From: Parvibaculum sp.
GTDB lineage: Bacteria; Pseudomonadota; Alphaproteobacteria; Parvibaculales; Parvibaculaceae
Length of the DNA: 64,000 nt
Assembly (NCBI GenBank): GCA_017642695.1
Contig: JAEPQD010000001.1
Location: 1,170,764 to 1,234,763, forward strand
Direction: 5' to 3'
Shown here: piece after piece, positions 3,779-38,653 of the stretch
How positions within the stretch are numbered: position 1 is the first letter of the stretch
Layout of the letters: every line of letters starts with the position of its first letter
Notes under the pieces: generated by a model
The model's database searches: none
Told to the model about the DNA's origin: nothing
What the model saw: the letters and a program-made list of their open reading frames with translations, nothing else
Position numbers and translations under genes: made by a program

Positions 3779-3852
3779 GCGGGTGTAGCTCAATGGTAGA
3801 GCAGAAGCTTCCCAAGCTTACGACGAGGGTTCGATTCCCTTCACCCGCTCCA
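3779..3852 (+). tRNA. tRNA-Gly (anticodon CCC)
   Basis: A 74-nt cloverleaf with encoded CCA. The acceptor stem GCGGGTG pairs with CACCCGC. The D arm is GCTC-AATGGTA-GAGC. The anticodon loop TTCCCAA at 3811-3817 gives CCC, and the T arm is GAGGG-TTCGATT-CCCTT. The outermost pair of the anticodon stem (G3806/A3822) is a mismatch. No flanking direct repeat or integrase suggests use as an integration site. Confidence 0.96.
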
Positions 3853-23398: not shown

Positions 23399-24934
23399 GT
23401 GACCCGGTCAGCGAATTGGTATGCGCGGCGGTTGTTCGCGCTCGGCATGTTGCTCGTGCTGGGGGCCTGCGTCGCCGTACCCGAATGGCGTTCGGAACCT
23501 GCAGAGGGCTCTCCGCACGCTCGGTGCCTCGCGCTCATTCGTGGCATGGACAAGGCCGTGGCCGCGCAGGGCGTCGGCGATGCCGGTGCCGCTCGCATCA
23601 AGACGTTCCCCTTTCTCCGCATCGACCGTTTCCTGGCGAGTTTTCGCCATGAACTTTCTGCGCCCGGCGCTTTCGAGGATTGGGTGGATCATCTGCGCTG
23701 GCTCGACGCGAGGGCACGGGAGATCGAAGCATCGAACCTGCCGGCAGAAACGCGCGCATCTCTCGCCGCGCAGCACGGCGTCGCCGAACCCGAAGACCTC
23801 GCCGCCGCCGCCAACCGCTGCGGCGATCTGTTGCTGAAGGTGGAGGTCATGAACGGACCGGCGGCGGCGCGCGAGGCGCTCGTCCGTGCCGCCGTCCCGC
23901 CCAGCCACTACAACAATTGGGTGCGCGCCGCAGGCCTCTACCCGATCACGAATCTCGGTGCCGTCGTCGGCTATGCGCGGTGGAAGGACGAGAACACCGG
24001 TTCCTTCGCGCTTCCCTATGAGCCGCCGGCGTCGTCTGAAAACATCGTTGCCTATGCGCCTGCCGCGCTCTCCGATGCCGCGGAAGCCTCGCGCATCGTC
24101 CGCAAGGCGCCTCGCACCGCCCTCGGCCTCCCGAAATTCTCCCCCGGCGACGTCGCGCACCTGACCGCTACCTTCGCGCCCGTCTTCGAAATCGAAACGC
24201 ACGGTGATGATGACCGTCTCGGTACGCCTGTCTGGCGCCGCGAGGATGGAGAACTGCTCCCCGCCGTCGATGTGTCCCGTCCGGTTGCCTCCACCCGTCT
24301 CGTCTACACGCGCTTCGGGGGCAGGGTGCTGCCGCAACTGGTCTACACGGTCTGGTTTCCCGCCCGGACGCTTCAGGGAAGGTTCGATCTTCTCGGCGGC
24401 CGCATCGACGGCTTCATCTGGCGCGTGACGCTCGACGAAAACGGCGAACCGCTTATCTATGACACGATCCATCCCTGCGGCTGCTACCATATGTTCTTCC
24501 CCGTCGCGCCGCTTGCGCGCATGCCGGTGCCCGAGGACCGCGACACGCGCGAAGCTCCGCTCGTGCCAAAAGAGGCGCCCCGGCTCGCGCCCGGCGAGCG
24601 GATTCATCTCCGTCTCGCAAGCGTCAGTCACTACCTGCTCAATCTCGGCGCTCGAAGGCCGGCTGCGACACCTTCGACCTATGAGCTCCAGTCCGTATGG
24701 GCATCTCCGGACTTCGGCGCGCGTTCCCTGCCCATGCCGGAAGGGGGCCGCCGCAGTTTCTACGGACCTTCGGGTATCGTACCGCATACGGAGCGTCTGG
24801 AACGCTTCACGCTCTGGCCGCTCGGCATCGAAAGTCCCGGCGCCATGCGCCAGTGGGGCACGCACGCCACCGCCTTTGTCGGCGAAGCGCATTTCGACGA
24901 ACCTTTCCTGATCGGCAGGGCCTTCGCGAGATGA
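23399..24934 (+). CDS. Lipoprotein of unknown function
   Basis: 511 residues from a GTG at 23399 that has GGAGG six bases upstream; the frame also runs back to 23339, within the end of the intergenic gap. The N-terminus is a lipoprotein signal (ARRLFALGMLLVLGAC, lipobox LGAC), so the protein is attached to a membrane. The rest is soluble, with conserved-looking blocks HYNNWVRAAGLYPITNLGAV, FGGRVLPQLVYTVWFPAR, IDGFIWRVTLDENGEP and IYDTIHPCGCYHMFFP; the HPCGCYH motif could bind a metal. I do not recognise a named family. It overlaps the TPR gene by ATGA, so they are translationally coupled. Confidence 0.8.
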   Translation: MTRSANWYARRLFALGMLLVLGACVAVPEWRSEPAEGSPHARCLALIRGMDKAVAAQGVGDAGAARIKTFPFLRIDRFLASFRHELSAPGAFEDWVDHLRWLDARAREIEASNLPAETRASLAAQHGVAEPEDLAAAANRCGDLLLKVEVMNGPAAAREALVRAAVPPSHYNNWVRAAGLYPITNLGAVVGYARWKDENTGSFALPYEPPASSENIVAYAPAALSDAAEASRIVRKAPRTALGLPKFSPGDVAHLTATFAPVFEIETHGDDDRLGTPVWRREDGELLPAVDVSRPVASTRLVYTRFGGRVLPQLVYTVWFPARTLQGRFDLLGGRIDGFIWRVTLDENGEPLIYDTIHPCGCYHMFFPVAPLARMPVPEDRDTREAPLVPKEAPRLAPGERIHLRLASVSHYLLNLGARRPAATPSTYELQSVWASPDFGARSLPMPEGGRRSFYGPSGIVPHTERLERFTLWPLGIESPGAMRQWGTHATAFVGEAHFDEPFLIGRAFAR

Positions 24935-31291: not shown

Positions 31292-31299
31292 TTCGAGTG

Positions 31300-32727
31300 A
31301 TGACCGCACGTGAGAAGGCGGGGACGTCCCGCGCCATGCCGAAGGCCTGCATCATCGGCGCAGGCTGCAGCGGCTTTTCCACCGCCAAGGCGCTGCAGGA
31401 TCGCGGCATCCCCTTCGACATTTTCGAGATGTCGGACACGATCGGCGGCAACTGGGCCTACAGGAACAAGAACGGCATGTCGGCCTGCTACGAGTCGCTC
31501 CACATCGACACGTCGAAATACCGCATGCAGTTCGAGGACTTTCCGATCCCCGACGAATTTCCGGATTTCCCGCATCACTCGCAGGTCCTGCAGTACTTCA
31601 ACGACTACGTCGACCATTTTGGCTTGCGCGAGAAGATCGAGTTCAACACGGCGGTCACGCATTGCGAGCGCACGGCGGAGGGTCTCTGGCGCGTCACCAT
31701 CGACCGCTCCGGTGCGGGCGGTCCCTCGTCCGAAACCCGCGAATATGACGCGCTCTTCGTCTGCAACGGCCATCACTGGGACCCGCGCTGGCCGACGCCC
31801 GCCTTCGAGGGGAATTTCGAAGGCGTCGAGATGCATGCTCATTCCTATCTGACGCCCTTCGAGCCCGTGGATATGCGCGGCAAGAACATCGTCGTCGTCG
31901 GCATGGGCAACAGCGCGATGGACATCGCCTCCGAGCTTTCCCAGAAGCCGATTGCGAAGAATCTCTGGGTCTCGGCGCGGCGCGGTGTCTACATCTTCCC
32001 GAAATATATCGGCGGCCGTGTTGCCGACAAATCCTCGCTTCCCCACTGGGTGCCGCTCCGTCTCCAGCGCTGGCTGGCCGCGAAGGCGCTGAAGCGCGCG
32101 GTCGGCAACATGGAGGATTACGGTCTGCCGAAGCCGGATCACAAGCCGCTCGAGGCGCATCCCTCCGTATCCGGAGAATTCCTCACGCGCGTCGGCTGTG
32201 GCGACGTGAAGATGAAACCCAATATCGAGCGTTTCGAAGGCCGCTCCGTTCGCTTCGCCGACGGGTCGGCGGAAGACGTCGATGTCATCGTCTATGCGAC
32301 GGGCTACAACGTCTCCTTCCCCTTCCTCGATGCCTCGGTCGTCGAGGTGAAGGACAATCACCTGCCGCTCTTCAAGCGCGTGATGAAGCCCGGCATTCCG
32401 AACCTCTTCTTCATGGCGCTGGCGCAGCCGCTCCCCACCCTCACCAATTTCGCCGAGCAGCAGGCCCGCTGGCTCGCCGCCTATCTCGCGGGCGACTATG
32501 CGCTGCCGTCGAAGGCGGAGATGGAACGCGTGATTGCCGAGGACGAGCATCGGTTCATCGGCCACTTCTACGACAGCCCGCGCCACAAGATGCAGGTCGA
32601 TTTCAACATCTATTGCCACGACCTGAAGAAGGAGTGGAAGAAGGGCGAAAAACGCGCCCGGGCCGCGGGCAACCCGCTTCCCGTGCCGCCCCGGGCTGGT
32701 GCCGGGCTGCCGCGGGCGGCCGACTAA
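31300..32727 (+). CDS. Flavin-containing monooxygenase
   Basis: 475 residues. There are two Rossmann motifs, an FAD site IIGAGCSGFSTAKAL near residue 20 and an NADPH site VVGMGNSAMDIASEL. Between them is the class B monooxygenase fingerprint FxGxxxHxxxY as FEGVEMHAHSY. It uses NADPH and O2 to oxidise N, S or ketone substrates. The Y rather than W-P ending places it nearer N/S-oxygenating FMOs than classic Baeyer-Villiger enzymes. The start is the ATG at 31300, directly after an in-frame GTG. The neighbouring TetR and HSL-type hydrolase on the same strand suggest a catabolic set. Confidence 0.9.
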   Translation: MTAREKAGTSRAMPKACIIGAGCSGFSTAKALQDRGIPFDIFEMSDTIGGNWAYRNKNGMSACYESLHIDTSKYRMQFEDFPIPDEFPDFPHHSQVLQYFNDYVDHFGLREKIEFNTAVTHCERTAEGLWRVTIDRSGAGGPSSETREYDALFVCNGHHWDPRWPTPAFEGNFEGVEMHAHSYLTPFEPVDMRGKNIVVVGMGNSAMDIASELSQKPIAKNLWVSARRGVYIFPKYIGGRVADKSSLPHWVPLRLQRWLAAKALKRAVGNMEDYGLPKPDHKPLEAHPSVSGEFLTRVGCGDVKMKPNIERFEGRSVRFADGSAEDVDVIVYATGYNVSFPFLDASVVEVKDNHLPLFKRVMKPGIPNLFFMALAQPLPTLTNFAEQQARWLAAYLAGDYALPSKAEMERVIAEDEHRFIGHFYDSPRHKMQVDFNIYCHDLKKEWKKGEKRARAAGNPLPVPPRAGAGLPRAAD

Positions 32728-32774
32728 CCATATGAAAAACAAGGTTTTTTCGAATCGGTGCGATGGCCAAAAAG

Positions 32775-32802
32775 TTGACGATTATCGTCATTTGGCTAGA
32801 GT
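32775..32802 (+). promoter_or_regulatory. Promoter with overlapping dyad operator for the TetR gene
   Basis: TGACGAT-T-ATCGTCA at 32776-32790 is a perfect palindrome with 7-bp arms. It overlaps the -35 hexamer TTGACG (32775-32780); TAGAGT at 32797-32802 is a -10 at 16-bp spacing. This is the arrangement expected for self-repression by the TetR protein encoded 118 bp downstream. Confidence 0.6.
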
Positions 32803-32878
32803 GTATTCAGTGCAGTGAGTCTGGGTGCCGGACGAACGGGGCGGGGCAGCCCCTGATCGGCGACGCTCTGGAGGGAAG

Positions 32879-32923
32879 ATGAAAATGATGGAGACCCCTT
32901 TCGGGGCAGGCGGCGGCGCATGA
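32879..32923 (+). CDS. Putative 14-residue leader peptide overlapping the TetR start
   Basis: ATG at 32879 with a strong GGAGGGAAG ribosome-binding site encodes MKMMETPFGAGGGA and stops at TGA 32921-32923, which overlaps the TetR ATG at 32920 (ATGA). The TetR start itself has no other ribosome-binding site, so translation of the leader may feed the regulator by coupling. It is also possible that the true regulator start is elsewhere. No family is recognised. Confidence 0.35.
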   Translation: MKMMETPFGAGGGA

Positions 32924-33579
32924 GCACCGGCGTCAAGGACGTGCCGTCCGACGAGGACAGGAAGAAGGCGCCGGGCAAGCGCGAGCTCACCAAGCATAAC
33001 AACCGCGAGGCGATCCTCGATGCCGCGCGCACCGTCTTCGCCGATCTCGGCTACGGCGCGACATCCGTGCGCGACATCATCCGCAAGACGGGCCTCGCAT
33101 CCGGTACTTTCTACAATTACTTCAAGAGCAAGGAAGAAGTCTTCGAGGCGCTGATGGACGAGGGCATGCGCCGCATCCGTCCGCGCCTGCGCGCCGAGCG
33201 TATCCGTTCGCGCACCTTCGAGGATTTCATCCGCAACGCCTACCGCACCTATTTCGATTATCTCGCGACCGACCGCGTGACCTTCCAGGTCATGCGCCGA
33301 AATCCGAACACGGTGCGCGTGCGCATGGACTCGCCCGAGATCATCGCCGGCTTCGAGGAGATCCGCGAATATATCGAGGAAGACATAAGGAACGGCACTC
33401 TGCCGGATGTCGATGCGGAATATCTCATGGCCGCCGTCGTCGGCATCGCCATGGAGATCGGCGACCGTATGCTGCGTCGTCCCGAAATGGACCCTGACCA
33501 CGCCTCCGCCTTTGCGACGGCGCTGGTGCTGAACGGCTTCCGCGCCCTGCCGCACAAGGGCGAAACGGGAGCGCCCTGA
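32920..33579 (+). CDS. TetR family transcriptional regulator
   Basis: 219 residues. The DNA-binding domain is plain: NREAILDAARTVFADLGYGA, TSVRDIIRKTGLASGTFYNYF and KSKEEVFEALMD (about 27-75), after a basic disordered start. The ligand domain is all-helical and ends near PHKGETGAP. A perfect dyad over the promoter suggests autoregulation. Its likely targets are the flanking monooxygenase and the HSL-type hydrolase 27 bp downstream, but this is inference. Confidence 0.92.
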   Translation: MSTGVKDVPSDEDRKKAPGKRELTKHNNREAILDAARTVFADLGYGATSVRDIIRKTGLASGTFYNYFKSKEEVFEALMDEGMRRIRPRLRAERIRSRTFEDFIRNAYRTYFDYLATDRVTFQVMRRNPNTVRVRMDSPEIIAGFEEIREYIEEDIRNGTLPDVDAEYLMAAVVGIAMEIGDRMLRRPEMDPDHASAFATALVLNGFRALPHKGETGAP

Positions 33580-33606
33580 CGGGCCTTCCGAAGGAGAAAA
33601 ACAAGA

Positions 33607-34632
33607 ATGAGCCTTCAGAAATTCATCGTCCGCACCCTGCTGAAACTGCCTGACGGCATTCTCGTGAAGATGTCGGGCGGCAAGCCGCTCGCGATAGACG
33701 GCCGCATTCTCGATGCCCGTGCGCAGCTTCTCGCCGTGCAGGGCGCGCGCCAGCCATCCATCACCACGCTCGACCCCGCGACCGCGCGCAGCGCCACCTC
33801 GGAAGGCTTGAGCCTGCTCGACGGCGCGCCGCGCTCCGGCGTCGAGGTGCAGCCTCTCCATGTGCCGGGCCCCGGCGGTCCGCTCGATGCGCGCCTCTAT
33901 CTGCCGGCGGGCAGCACCGGTCCGCTGCCCGGCCTCGTCTTCTTCCATTTCGGCGGCTGTGTCATCGGCGATCTCGATACCTGCCACACCTTCTGCAGCA
34001 TGATCTCGGACATCGCGGGCATCGCCATCCTGAACGTCGCCTACCGTCTTGCGCCGGAGCACAAATATCCGGCCCAGGTGCATGATGCCGTCGCGGCCTA
34101 TCAATGGGCGCAGGCGAATGCCGAGGATCTCCGCATGATCCCCGGCCGCATCGGCGTCGGCGGCGACAGCGCGGGCGGCTATCTCTCCGCCGTCGTCGCG
34201 CAGGAAGCGAAGCGTCAGGGCTTCGCGGCGCCCGCCGTCCAGCTTCTCATCTATCCGGTGACGGACTGGGGCTGGAAGGGCGGTTCCATGGAAAGCTGCG
34301 CCGACGTCTACCCGCTCACCGCCGAAATCATGGAGTGGTTCGGCGCCCATTACCTGAACGCGCCCTCGGAAGCGGACGATGTCCGCGTCTCGCCGATGAA
34401 GGAGCCGGACCTTTCGGGCCTCGCCCCTGCCATCGTCGTCACGGCCGGTTTCGATCCGTTGCGCGATCAGGGCAAGGCCTATGCGGACAAGCTGAAAGCG
34501 GCGGGCGTCTCCGTGACTTACGCCTGCGAGGATTCGCTGCCCCATGCCTTCACCGCCATGACCGGCGTCATCCCCGCCGCCAATGCCGCCTGCGAAAAGA
34601 TCGCGCGAGATGTCGGCGCGGCGCTCCGCTGA
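33607..34632 (+). CDS. HSL-type alpha/beta hydrolase (esterase/lipase)
   Basis: 341 residues. The hormone-sensitive-lipase pattern is visible: the nucleophile Ser in GVGGDSAGGYLSAV, Asp in TAGFDPLRDQ, His in SLPHAFTAM, and the YRLAPEHKYPA motif. The oxyanion-hole motif, normally HGGG, reads FFHFGGCVIGD (HFGGC), an unusual form. The gene follows the TetR gene by 27 bp with an AAGGAG site, so they share a message. Probable ester hydrolysis of a compound linked to the monooxygenase pathway is an inference. Confidence 0.88.
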   Translation: MSLQKFIVRTLLKLPDGILVKMSGGKPLAIDGRILDARAQLLAVQGARQPSITTLDPATARSATSEGLSLLDGAPRSGVEVQPLHVPGPGGPLDARLYLPAGSTGPLPGLVFFHFGGCVIGDLDTCHTFCSMISDIAGIAILNVAYRLAPEHKYPAQVHDAVAAYQWAQANAEDLRMIPGRIGVGGDSAGGYLSAVVAQEAKRQGFAAPAVQLLIYPVTDWGWKGGSMESCADVYPLTAEIMEWFGAHYLNAPSEADDVRVSPMKEPDLSGLAPAIVVTAGFDPLRDQGKAYADKLKAAGVSVTYACEDSLPHAFTAMTGVIPAANAACEKIARDVGAALR

Positions 34633-34699
34633 CGCGAAAAATCTCAGAACCGTTCGCAGATAGCTTTCTTGCCGCCTGCGATATCGCGTGCTAATTCCA

Positions 34700-34882
34700 C
34701 ATTGTCCTTAGGGGAGTAGCCGCCCTCCACTACGAGAGGGGCGGACGTCAACAAACTCGGAGCCTGAGCGATCCCAGACGAAGTGGAATCCGGTTCGTCG
34801 TCCGGGATCGCGCAAACGAAAAACTCCGTGGCGTCCGCGCTCAGCACCCGCTGAACTGGCGAGACCTTTGGCTCACGCGCTG
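34700..34882 (+). ncRNA. yybP-ykoY manganese riboswitch
   Basis: The region before the TMEM165/GDT1 gene carries the conserved core of the yybP-ykoY class in order: CCTTAGGGGAGTAGCC at 34706-34721, then GTCAACAAACTCGG (34747-34760), then CTGGCGAGACCTTTGG (34856-34871). The outer stem pairs the AGG of the first block with CCT of GAGACCTTTGG, leaving the internal loop GGGGAGTAGC/GAGACC that binds Mn2+ in known members. The stretch between the second and third blocks varies between members. The class is found upstream of Mn2+ exporters, including GDT1-type proteins, which matches the gene that follows. Exact ends are not fixed. An 88-codon reverse frame here is therefore considered false. Confidence 0.88.
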
Positions 34883-34940
34883 CCTTTGCCGGGCGGCCGC
34901 GGTGGGTCATTGGTGTCGCGCCCGGCAGCGGAGTCATCTC

Positions 34941-35516
34941 TTGGAAGCCTTCCTCGTTTCTCTCGGTGCCGTCGCCATCGCCGAAATCGGCGACAAGACG
35001 CAATTGCTCGCGCTCATCCTCGCCATCCGCTTCCGCGCGCCGGTTGCCGTCATCGCAGGCATCTTCGCCGCCACCGTCGCAAACCATGCGCTCGCCGCCT
35101 TCGCCGGCACGCTCGTCGCGGACTGGCTGACGCCGGAAATTCTCGCCTGGGTACTCGGCCTCTCCTTCATGATGATGGGGTTCTGGGCCTTGATCCCCGA
35201 CGAACCGCCCTCGGAGGACGAGGCGAAGGCGCCCTCCCGCTACGGTCCTTTCATTGCAACGGTGATTGCCTTCTTCCTCGTGGAGATGGGCGACAAGACG
35301 CAACTTGCCACCGTCGCGCTCGGCGCGCGCTACGAGGCGCTCGTCCCCGTCGCGCTCGGCACGACCTTCGGCATGATGGTGGCGAATGTTCCCGTGGTTC
35401 TCTTCGGCGAGGCGGCGGCGAAACGCGTGCCGCTCGCCCTCATGCGCTATGCCGCCGCCGCTATCTTCATCATGCTCGGCCTGGCCGGCATCGCCTCGGC
35501 GCTTTCCTATTCCTGA
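34941..35516 (+). CDS. TMEM165/GDT1 family (putative Mn2+ exporter)
   Basis: 191 residues with six or seven membrane helices in two repeated halves. Each half bears the family motif E-x-G-D-K-T: EIGDKT at 15-20 and EMGDKT at 115-120. The TTG at 34941 (GGAG 8 nt upstream) gives the usual start, MEAFLVSLGAVAIAEIGDKT; a GTG at 34902 adds 13 residues that do not fit the family. GDT1 members export Mn2+ (and Ca2+ in eukaryotes). The upstream yybP-ykoY riboswitch supports induction by manganese. The stop overlaps the convergent hydrolase by 10 bp. Confidence 0.93.
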   Translation: MEAFLVSLGAVAIAEIGDKTQLLALILAIRFRAPVAVIAGIFAATVANHALAAFAGTLVADWLTPEILAWVLGLSFMMMGFWALIPDEPPSEDEAKAPSRYGPFIATVIAFFLVEMGDKTQLATVALGARYEALVPVALGTTFGMMVANVPVVLFGEAAAKRVPLALMRYAAAAIFIMLGLAGIASALSYS

Positions 35517-36385
35517 TCGGAGCGCAGAAACGTGATCAGCATGTCGTTGATGGGCTTCGGCTCCTCGCGCAGCACCCAGTGCGTCCTCTCGCCGAAGAAG
35601 AGCGTGCCGCCGCGCTCGCAGAGCTCGATGCTCTTCTTCGCGAGCGACACATCCGCGAATTCGTCCTTCTCGCCCCAGATGAGCAGCACCGGCACCTCGA
35701 TCCGCTGGACGGGCGCGGAGAGATCCTTCTTCAGCAGCGCCCGGTACCAGTGGATCATGGAGGTGAGCGCTTTCGGTTCGCGCCACGCCTTGCGGTACTG
35801 CTCCCACTCTGCCTTGTCGAACGCGCCCTCGCGCGCGGAGGCTTCCAGCGCCTCGATGAGACCCGAAAAATTCTTCCTCCGCATCATCCATTCGGGCAGG
35901 CCGCGCAAGCGGAACATCTTCACATAGCGGCTCTTCCGGCGCTGTTCCTTGTCGGTGAACATCGCCTGCTTCCAGATCGCGGGGTGCGGCGCGTTGATCA
36001 CCGCCGCCTTTTCCATCTGCGCGGCCCTTGTCGAGCAGAGCCACCAGGCGACGCTCGCGCCCCAGTCGTGGCCGACGACGCGAAGCTTCTCCTCGCCGAA
36101 ATGCCGCCCGAGGTCGATGACGTCCTGCGCCAGCTCGTCGAGGTCATAGGCCTTCACGCCGCGCGGCTTGCCGCTTACGCCATAGCCGCGCTGGTCGGGC
36201 GCGATCACGCGGAAGCCTGCCTTCGCAAGCGCCGGCATCTGGTGGTGCCAGCCGAGGCAATTGTCGGGAAAGCCGTGCAGCAGCAGGACGAGCGGTCCGT
36301 CCTCGGGCCCCATCTCCGCGTAATGCAATGCGATCCTGTCGAGATGCGCGACGCCGAAGCGCGCATCCTCCATGCCGGTCTTCAT
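35507..36385 (-). CDS. Epoxide hydrolase-type alpha/beta hydrolase
   Basis: 292 residues. The oxyanion motif is LLHGFPDNCLGW, the nucleophile is Asp 107 in VVGHDWGAS, and the catalytic His is near 269 in ERTHWVLREEP. An Asp nucleophile in GHDWG marks epoxide hydrolases and haloalkane dehalogenases; the HGFPD motif and cap region point to epoxide hydrolase. No signal peptide is visible, so it should be cytoplasmic. It is divergent from the quinone oxidoreductase gene. Confidence 0.88.
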   Translation of the reverse strand: MKTGMEDARFGVAHLDRIALHYAEMGPEDGPLVLLLHGFPDNCLGWHHQMPALAKAGFRVIAPDQRGYGVSGKPRGVKAYDLDELAQDVIDLGRHFGEEKLRVVGHDWGASVAWWLCSTRAAQMEKAAVINAPHPAIWKQAMFTDKEQRRKSRYVKMFRLRGLPEWMMRRKNFSGLIEALEASAREGAFDKAEWEQYRKAWREPKALTSMIHWYRALLKKDLSAPVQRIEVPVLLIWGEKDEFADVSLAKKSIELCERGGTLFFGERTHWVLREEPKPINDMLITFLRSDQE

Positions 36386-36512
36386 CTCTTTTCCGTCCTC
36401 CGGGGCTTCCCCTGCGTGAGCCCCATTCTAGTCCGGAGCATGGCGAAGTTGGGGCCGCACCTCTATGCTTTGACGCAAATGAATTTGCCATAAGCGTTGC
36501 GGGGAGAAAGCC

Positions 36513-37487
36513 ATGCGTGCCATGCGTGTGCACGAACTATCGGAAAATATCGATGTGCTCAGGATGGACGAGGTGGAATTGCCGCCGCCGGGGCCGGGCG
36601 AGGTCCGCCTGAAGCTCCGCGCCTGCTCGGTCAATTTCCCGGACATCCTGATGGTGCAGGGGAAATACCAGTTCAAGCCCGAGCTTCCCTTCTCGCCGGG
36701 CATGGAAGGTGCGGGCACCGTCGCGTCGGTGGGCGAGGGCGTGACGAGGCTGAAACCAGGCGACCGTGTGGTCGCGGGGCTGCGCGTCGGCGGCTTCGCG
36801 GAGGAAGTGAACGTGCCTGAGGCCGCCTGCCGCCCGATCCCCGGCGCGATGGATTTCGCCGAGGCCGCCGCCTATCCCGCCGCCTATCTCACGGCCTATG
36901 TCGCGCTTGTCTGCCGCGGCCATCTGCAGAAGGGCGAGACGCTTCTGGTGCACGGGAGCACAGGCGGCGTCGGCCTCGCCGCCGTCGAAATGGGCAAGCT
37001 TCTCGGCGCGACGGTGATCGCGACCTCGGCTTCGGACGAGAAGCTGAAGGTGGTGAAGGCGCGCGGCGCCGATCACGTGCTGAACGTCACGCAAGGTTTC
37101 CGCGAAAAGGTGAAGGAGCTCACCGGCGGGCGCGGCGCAGATGTGATCTACGATCCCGTCGGCGGCGACGTCTTCGACGAAAGCGTGCGCTGCATCGCCT
37201 GGAACGGCCGCCTCCTCATCATCGGTTTCACCAGCGGCCGTATCCCCTCCGTCTCCGTCAACATGCCGCTCATCAAGGGCTTCTCCGTCGTCGGCGTCCG
37301 CGCCGGAGAATACGGCCGCCGCGATCCGGAAGCGGGCCGCGCCAACATCGAGGCGGTCGACCGCCTCGCCGCCGAAGGAAGGATCAAACCTTACATCTGC
37401 GCCCGCTTCCCGCTGGAGCGCGCGGTCGACGCCATGCGCATGCTTCAGGAGCGCAAGGCCGTCGGCAAGGTCGTGATCGAGATGTAG
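36513..37487 (+). CDS. NADPH:quinone oxidoreductase-family protein (zinc-free MDR)
   Basis: 324 residues of the medium-chain dehydrogenase family without the structural-zinc cysteines. The N-terminal GroES-like part contains CSVNFPDILMVQGKYQFKP and GMEGAGTVASVGEGV. The cofactor domain contains LLVHGSTGGVGLAAVEMGK, then GRGADVIYDPVGGDVF. These enzymes reduce quinones or enoyl-CoA-like substrates with NADPH. The ATG at 36513 has GGGGAGAAAG just upstream. The 3' flank carries three palindromic repeats. Confidence 0.92.
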   Translation: MRAMRVHELSENIDVLRMDEVELPPPGPGEVRLKLRACSVNFPDILMVQGKYQFKPELPFSPGMEGAGTVASVGEGVTRLKPGDRVVAGLRVGGFAEEVNVPEAACRPIPGAMDFAEAAAYPAAYLTAYVALVCRGHLQKGETLLVHGSTGGVGLAAVEMGKLLGATVIATSASDEKLKVVKARGADHVLNVTQGFREKVKELTGGRGADVIYDPVGGDVFDESVRCIAWNGRLLIIGFTSGRIPSVSVNMPLIKGFSVVGVRAGEYGRRDPEAGRANIEAVDRLAAEGRIKPYICARFPLERAVDAMRMLQERKAVGKVVIEM

Positions 37488-37494
37488 AAAACAA

Positions 37495-37648
37495 ATGTCA
37501 TTGCCGGGCTTGACCCGGCAATCCAGGGCGGTTTGCACTGCGCTAAAATAAAAATTGTCACCCCGGCACTTGTTGCCGGGGCCCAATCCACGTCAGCCGC
37601 GCGCCGCGCCGCCAATGGATCCCGGGCATGAAGCCCGGGATGACATCT
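37495..37648. repeat. Cluster of three palindromic intergenic repeats
   Basis: Three hairpin units lie in the gap between the convergent oxidoreductase and SDR genes: TTGCCGGG-CTTGA-CCCGGCAA (37501-37521), CCCCGGCA-CTTGT-TGCCGGGG (37561-37581), and ATCCCGGGC-ATGAA-GCCCGGGAT (37619-37641). Units 1 and 2 are preceded by TGTCA, while unit 3 is followed by ATGACA, so it is reversed. Similar TGTCAT-GC-stem repeats are common between genes in Rhizobiales. They may also stop both converging transcripts; a T-run follows unit 3. Confidence 0.75.
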
Positions 37649-37670
37649 TGTTTTTGTGCGAGAAACCCCT

Positions 37671-38558
37671 CTAGACGCTCCGCTTCGCCTTGTCCTTGTC
37701 GTTTGCGCCGCGGATCATCTCGCGCATCTTGTCCCATTCCTCGTCGGAGAGTTTCGAGAGCCGCGAGAAATTGCCGCCGCCCGCCGAGAAGCCGCCGCCG
37801 TCGATGGCGATGGTCTGCCCGGTGAGATACTCGCAGCCATCCGCCATCAGGAATGTCGCGAGGTTCTGCAATTCGCTCATCTGCCCCACGCGCCCCATCG
37901 GGATGCCCTCGCGCGAGCCTTCGCCGTCGGTCGACTGGCCGGGCGACAGCCGCGCCCAGGCGCCCTCGGTCGGGAAGGGGCCGGGCGCGATGGCGTTGAG
38001 CCGGATGCCGTAAGGCCCCCATTCGGCGGCGAGCGATTTCGTCATGATGTTGACGCCCGCCTTCGACATCGCGCTCGGCACGGTGAACGGTCCGCCGTTC
38101 CATATCCATGTCGTCAGGATCGAGATGACGCTGCCCGGTACCTTGTCGCGGATCCAGCGCGTGCCGATCGCATGCGTCACGTAGAACGAGCCGTGAAACA
38201 CGATGCCCGCAATGGCGTCGAAGCCGCGCGAGGAAAGGTCCTTGGTTGGCGAGATGAAATTGCCGGCGGCGTTGTTCACGAGGCCTGTCAGCGGTCCCTC
38301 CGCCCAGATTTCCTCGACCATCTCGTCCACGGCCTGCGCCACGCGAATGTCGACGCTGTGCGTCTTCACGGAACCGCCGTGCTTGTCCATCAGCTCCTTC
38401 GCCGTGTCGTCGAGTACCTGCTTGCGCCGCCCGCAGATATAGACCTCGGCGCCGAGCCGGAGATAGTCCTCGGCCATTTCCTTGCCGAGGCCCGTGCCGC
38501 CGCCCGTCACCAGGATGCGCTTGCCCTTGAGCAGTCCGTCACGAAACATCGAAGCCAT
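37671..38558 (-). CDS. SDR oxidoreductase, 2,4-dienoyl-CoA reductase-like
   Basis: 295 residues, starting at the ATG 38558 with GGAGGGAAAG ahead. The Rossmann motif is LVTGGGTGLGKEMA; the NNAAGNF block and IDGGGFSAGGGNF end follow. The catalytic region reads FTVPSAMSKAGVNIMTKSLA, so the usual Tyr of YxxxK is replaced, as in mitochondrial-type 2,4-dienoyl-CoA reductases. These remove double bases of unsaturated fatty acids during beta-oxidation using NADPH, which fits the beta-oxidation operon elsewhere in the window. The start lies just before a divergent-free gap to DUF6460. Confidence 0.87.
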   Translation of the reverse strand: MASMFRDGLLKGKRILVTGGGTGLGKEMAEDYLRLGAEVYICGRRKQVLDDTAKELMDKHGGSVKTHSVDIRVAQAVDEMVEEIWAEGPLTGLVNNAAGNFISPTKDLSSRGFDAIAGIVFHGSFYVTHAIGTRWIRDKVPGSVISILTTWIWNGGPFTVPSAMSKAGVNIMTKSLAAEWGPYGIRLNAIAPGPFPTEGAWARLSPGQSTDGEGSREGIPMGRVGQMSELQNLATFLMADGCEYLTGQTIAIDGGGFSAGGGNFSRLSKLSDEEWDKMREMIRGANDKDKAKRSV

Positions 38559-38653
38559 CTTTCCCTCCGCTGACATGTTTTGCGGGCGAGATTAGCTCGT
38601 CATCGGTGCTTCGTCTCGTCTTTCGGTTTGACGCAAGGGAAGGGTGGGACGGC

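Follow-up and report, generated by a model that had tools for sequence, protein, structure and literature searches.

A yybP-ykoY riboswitch with a palindromic repeat in arm P3 upstream of a GDT1/UPF0016 transporter gene in Parvibaculum sp.

The window analysed here is a whole stretch of 64,000 nucleotides from Parvibaculum sp. (contig JAEPQD010000001.1 of assembly GCA_017642695.1). It contains an element of the RF00080 family, which precedes a metal-homeostasis gene of the same orientation, and a reverse open reading frame overlaps this element. The features of the locus are the following:

34644-34910, minus strand: antisense frame of 88 codons, no gene on present evidence (no Pfam match, disrupted in relatives)
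34699-34935, plus strand: Mn2+ riboswitch, aptamer and platform (RF00080, cmscan)
34706-34719, plus strand: 5' strand of P1 with L1, CCTTAGGGGAGTAG (direct reading)
34746-34758, plus strand: L3 block of arm P3, CGTCAACAAACTC (direct reading, aligned to the RF00080 consensus)
34767-34823, plus strand: dispersed palindromic repeat in the apical loop of P3 (covariance model R1)
34861-34874, plus strand: 3' strand of P1, GAGACCTTTGGCTC (RF00080 alignment, direct reading)
34886-34895, plus strand: 5' strand of predicted hairpin S2, TTGCCGGGCG (helix compared with shuffles, leader alignment)
34904-34914, plus strand: predicted anti-P1 strand, GGGTCATTGGT, the alternative partner of the P1 3' strand (duplex compared with shuffles)
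34919-34928, plus strand: 3' strand of predicted hairpin S2, CGCCCGGCAG, with 12 nt between its end and the start codon (helix compared with shuffles)
34928-34933, plus strand: likely Shine-Dalgarno sequence GCGGAG (direct reading)
34941-35516, plus strand: GDT1/UPF0016 divalent cation transporter gene, 191 codons, TTG start (PF01169)

The element at 34699-34935 was recognised by cmscan as a Mn2+ riboswitch (RF00080, yybP-ykoY) with 45.9 bits and an E value of 4.2e-9 for the 64-kb window, which is 0.9 bits over the gathering score of 45. The earlier note had assigned it to the yybP-ykoY class and asked for this very search, and the match over the cut-off agrees with the assignment. No other RF00080 match at E <= 10 is present in the 3.6-Mb assembly, which is 95% complete. 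The three conserved blocks that had been noticed in the letters do occur in the given order at 34706-34719, 34746-34758 and 34861-34874; the first two are those which we take to be P1 with L1 and the L3 part of P3. The sequence GGGGAGTA is retained in 27 of 27 loci from the order Parvibaculales.

The protein encoded downstream was likewise described correctly as a GDT1 transporter with two motifs: it matches PF01169 in two stretches with 138.2 bits, and its motifs are EIGDKT (34983-35000) and EMGDKT (35283-35300). The best named matches of the protein come from Parvibaculum, with 80, 75 and 73% identity; a second GDT1 gene was not found in the assembly, and a search by sequence at E <= 0.01 gave no solved structure. 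The gene most likely starts at TTG 34941, because a start codon situated 42 nt upstream of the first motif is kept in all 27 order loci. The longest frame would start at GTG 34902, which is less likely on the same grounds. Among the neighbouring genes (31297-38576) there are an FMO-like monooxygenase, a TetR regulator, two alpha/beta hydrolases, a zinc-type dehydrogenase and an SDR enzyme, with no evident metal gene. Elsewhere in the window, tRNA genes for Gly (ccc, 3779-3852) and Glu (ttc, 24783-24867) are located, the latter being detected by ARAGORN only, with no Rfam tRNA match over the cut-off.

The arrangement is common among the relatives. RF00080 was detected at E <= 0.001 in 27 of 40 order genomes (over the cut-off in 15 of the 40), and GDT1 motifs follow the riboswitch in 27 of 27 order loci. 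In the sample of 289 alphaproteobacterial genomes the family is matched in 38 at E <= 1e-4 and in 29 over the cut-off. Class loci were retrieved from 30 genomes, one of them the window's own; the 29 others, out of 37 other matching genomes, carry behind the riboswitch a GDT1 gene (25 loci, by motif), an MntP gene (3 loci) or a Na/Ca exchanger gene (1 locus, the last two by Pfam). The latter case is L035, where an RF00080 element precedes a gene of the Na/Ca-exchanger family at 1320-2501 and neither GDT1 nor MntP. In the stretch covered behind the riboswitch, L006 and L008, which belong to another genus of the same family, and L037, L038 and L048 of the class showed a single E-x-G-D motif; these are possibly single-motif or differently spelled members of GDT1.

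The job suggested for the locus in the earlier note was manganese-induced export, and this is supported by the RF00080 match over the cut-off, by the identity of the GDT1 gene and by the same order of the two in 27 of 27 order loci. The Mn response of the exporter is here predicted from the class of the riboswitch. The pairing of a Mn2+ riboswitch with a UPF0016 exporter is already documented. As a review states, the UPF0016 gene is under yybP-ykoY control in 328 of 333 screened bacterial strains that have a member of the family (PMC7380456). In Vibrio parahaemolyticus, the TMEM165-family gene mneA lies behind a yybP-ykoY element and is described as Mn-induced, its reads passing the riboswitch with no pronounced drop reported (PMC13274385). 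This gammaproteobacterial system resembles the present one in having the same riboswitch class ahead of the same transporter family. Since the pairing is in print (PMC7380456, PMC13274385), the central point of the earlier note is an ordinary one.

The region between the aptamer and the gene holds two helices which are suggested to form the expression platform. Hairpin S2 contains the anti-P1 strand in its loop, and this is why the form with P1 and S2 and the form with the anti-P1 hairpin would be mutually alternative. A pseudoknot in which the anti-P1 hairpin and S2 exist simultaneously was considered and set aside by reasoning, as the connecting stretch seems not long enough to reach across the anti-P1 stem (for example, in L026).

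Both helices were compared with 200 dinucleotide shuffles per leader (p <= 0.05) in 52 leaders: 27 from the order (two of them duplicates, which were kept), 24 from the class and that of E. coli mntP. The class leaders L039 (no start codon found) and L035, L047, L050 and L055 (gene other than GDT1), as well as the E. coli alx leader, were left out of the counts. S2 is better than the shuffles in 43 of the 52 leaders and the anti-P1 duplex in 46, the window's own p values being 0.010 and 0.005, respectively; for the 51 alphaproteobacterial leaders the numbers are 43 for S2, 45 for anti-P1 and 38 for both. The distance from the end of S2 to the start codon is 9-17 nt in 52 of 52 leaders, the 3' strand having been sought only 32 to 7 nt upstream.

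In the 25 distinct order leaders, 94.1% of the anti-P1 cells are paired. Their alignment, in which several rows seem to be out of place at S2 (this would lower the counts), gave 88.1% of paired cells compared with 84.3% after shuffling; slid registers gave 26.9-51.3%. The covariation score was 0.205 compared with 0.140 after shuffling. The numbers of paired and changed cells and the covariation score were reached by 0 of 500 shuffles. The other two of the five pair measures were reached by shuffles: the six pairs changed on both sides by 11 of 500, one slid register giving a higher number (7), and the count of pair types by 69 of 500. We consider that the recurrence of these alternative helices suggests translational control.

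The leader of E. coli mntP has counterparts of both helices: its anti-P1 strand is also located downstream of P1, and 12 nt likewise separate the 3' strand of its second helix from the start codon. It differs from the Parvibaculum leader in that it precedes an exporter of another family (MntP), its S2-like helix does not exceed the shuffles (p 0.345), and 127 nt separate the P1 3' strand from the start, compared with 81 nt here. No intrinsic terminator was found between the aptamer and the start, the sole terminator-like site of region 34600-35600 being located inside the gene (35484-35500); a platform based on such a terminator was rejected for this leader. In the same region no sigma-70-like promoter was found, which says little for this organism.

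We suppose that the locus represents a yybP-ykoY Mn2+ riboswitch exerting translational ON control over a Mn2+ exporter of the GDT1/MneA type, in which the palindromic repeat of the P3 arm is a tolerated insertion; the probability of this reading is estimated at about 0.82. In the yybP-ykoY class, the short P1 helix gains stability when Mn2+ binds between L1 and L3. When Mn2+ is present, P1 would prevent its 3' strand from pairing with the anti-P1 strand further downstream, the form with P1 and S2 would result, and the exporter would be translated. When Mn2+ is lacking, the P1 3' strand and the anti-P1 strand would form a long hairpin, resulting in low expression. Because no intrinsic terminator is found in the leader, the control is most likely exerted at the translation start, possibly with the participation of Rho as in E. 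coli mntP. For that gene it is reported that the ribosome-binding site is inaccessible without Mn, and that Rho termination occurs in the riboswitch region, where Mn allows transcription and translation to be coupled again (PMC11647493). We infer the ON direction, in which Mn2+ would favour the P1 and S2 form and this form would be the active one, from the behaviour described for mntP (PMC11647493) and from the nature of the gene product.

The accessibility folding does not support this direction. Blocking only the P1 3' strand, with 12 nt of the gene included, made the Shine-Dalgarno window less open in 24 of the 27 leaders from the order and in 17 of the 24 from the class, and more open in E. 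coli mntP; this setting, taken alone, favours OFF control. The same aptamer may indeed be wired as an OFF switch, in which Mn2+ would stabilise P1, S2 would extend into the Shine-Dalgarno region and translation would fall. The folded leaders offer some ground for it: S2 does extend into the Shine-Dalgarno window (for example, in L005, L015 and L023), and the location of the anti-P1 strand in the S2 loop makes the two hairpins alternative under this wiring as well. However, the lean shrinks when more coding sequence is included: leaders becoming less and more open are in the ratio of 14:13 in the order and 16:8 in the class at 30 nt, and 14:13 and 15:9 at 60 nt, with almost no change in E. coli mntP at either length. 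It is gone when both states are forced, the ribosome site being more open in the P1 and S2 form in 24, 25, 21 and 25 of the 52 leaders at the four coding lengths. Moreover, the similarly wired mntP of E. coli is reported to be off without Mn (PMC11647493), and an exporter repressed by its own substrate makes little sense. We consider OFF control improbable, at roughly one chance in ten, and retain translational ON control as the preferred reading.

The only unusual part of the system, and a mildly unusual one, is the inserted repeat; the rest is of a known kind. The locus resembles the yybP-ykoY family in scoring over the cut-off, in the ordered L1, L3 and P1 blocks and in preceding a gene of a Mn-exporter family, and differs from it in the 57-nt repeat placed in the apical loop of P3, where the Rfam alignment passes over 61 bases and the consensus has 4. 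A covariance model, R1, was built from 13 copies of the repeat, three of which come from riboswitches, including the one at 34767-34823 (L157, almost identical to L156, was excluded); the score of 75.6 bits (E 2.1e-20) which this model gives at 34767-34823, like those of the other riboswitch copies, is consequently not independent. In the 13 copies 98.6% of the cells are paired and the covariation is 0.252 compared with 0.089 after shuffling, neither value being reached by any of 500 shuffles, in a structure that was itself written from the consensus of the copies; the number of pair types was reached by 150 of 500 shuffles.

Searches of different stringency give a different picture of the repeat's distribution. 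With a 71-nt query and a 40-nt pattern, only this copy is found in the own genome, and high-identity searches of 27 genus and 289 class genomes return riboswitch copies only, those of the genus being in three genomes. A looser pattern of the core reveals 14 places in 12 of the 27 genus genomes; three are the riboswitch copies, and in the others the flanks share the layout while the arms differ. Model R1 extends this further: at E <= 0.01 it detects copies in at least 23 of the 27 genus genomes, with at least 21 in one of them (150 candidates scored per genome) and at least five in the own genome, and at E <= 1e-5 in at least 24 of the 289 class genomes (19 candidates scored per genome). The looser pattern and the covariance model rule out an extension peculiar to a single locus and point to a dispersed family.

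The insert matches no Rfam family up to E 1 and no plasmid record at E 0.01. No printed name for the repeat was found in the searched open-access literature, whether by core sequences or by searching on RIME-type repeats. By description, not by sequence, it can be likened to the rhizobial RIME, Sm-repeats and AB/C palindromes, which are presented as repeats scattered between the genes of an alphaproteobacterium and conserved in their secondary structure (PMC2573895). We found no precedent in the searched open-access literature for a repeat within an aptamer arm. The nearest one seen is the pneumococcal BOX, a small dispersed repeat described as co-transcribed in a riboswitch leader (PMC3049150) and noted in a MITE review as well (PMC10969869); there, BOX is placed between two T-box riboswitches, whereas here the repeat is inside the arm of the aptamer.

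Among 56 riboswitch loci (L001-L027 and L030-L058), R1 is matched at E <= 0.01 only in L001, L023 and L025. These carriers make up 3 of the 22 Parvibaculum riboswitches and belong to separate lineages: on the GDT1 gene tree with 22 genus rows the insert needs three changes, and a clade of the three carriers, a group named before the tree was made, is rejected with p-AU 2.5e-131. Their insert-free close relatives are L005, the pair of L004 and L013, and L014 (support 92/89, 100/99 and 90/89, respectively). The three riboswitch copies share the arms GCGATCCC and GGGATCGC and have the same site and orientation; no further copy with these arms was found in the 27 genus genomes using the 40-nt pattern with up to three mismatches. 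The insert may originate from independent insertions of the same variant, from one old insertion followed by several losses, or from transfer of the leader by recombination.

These data lend something to the idea that the repeat is a domesticated module, such as a protein- or RNase-binding hairpin or a pause site, which tunes the Mn2+ switch and whose allele was passed between Parvibaculum lineages by recombination. The arms unique to the riboswitch copies, their identical placement, and the sharing of one allele by carriers which the gene tree refuses to group would be consistent with such a history. We nevertheless regard domestication as unlikely, about as much so as OFF control, and treat the repeat as a tolerated insertion.

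The repeat might, on the other hand, have damaged or detuned an aptamer that still folds, leaving the gene nearly constitutive. The insert adds a strong hairpin and more than doubles the P3 arm (98 nt here compared with 45 nt in the sister L005), and the carriers score 11-19 bits under their insert-free close relatives: 45.9 compared with 57.3 bits for L001 and L005 (-11.4), 38.6 compared with 57.6 for L023 and L004 (-19.0), and 34.2 compared with 47.0 for L025 and L014 (-12.8), part of each difference being the cost of the long insertion itself. However, L1, L3 and the stem of P3 are intact; in all three carriers this stem and the L3 loop still fold around the repeat, and insert-free members of the genus can also be low (40.9 bits in L018 and 39.8 bits in L022). 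A detuned aptamer is, in our opinion, somewhat less probable still than OFF control or domestication, and a working switch which tolerates the insertion remains the preferred interpretation.

The earlier note had also pointed to the 88-codon reverse frame over the element and called it false, and was right in both respects; by its suggestion, the frame might conceal the element from automatic annotation. The frame, at 34644-34910 on the minus strand, is the tail of a 466-codon frame with a GTG start. It gave no Pfam match, and in tblastn against 26 order relatives no match runs through it uninterrupted by a gap, a stop or a frame change; on these two results it was rejected as a gene. That the element is a chance resemblance or an antisense coding region is hardly credible: the reverse frame is open across it, but the RF00080 score (E 4.2e-9) and the matches in 27 of 40 order genomes rule out a chance match, the alternative helices recur across the leaders, and the reverse frame is disrupted in relatives.

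The main finding is one more alphaproteobacterial case of the well-described pairing of a Mn2+ riboswitch with a UPF0016 exporter. The recurring two-state platform in the alphaproteobacterial GDT1 leaders, with its counterparts in mntP, provides definite helices to mutate. Riboswitches that have the repeat in the arm and others that lack it form a natural series, which could show how much foreign RNA an aptamer tolerates.
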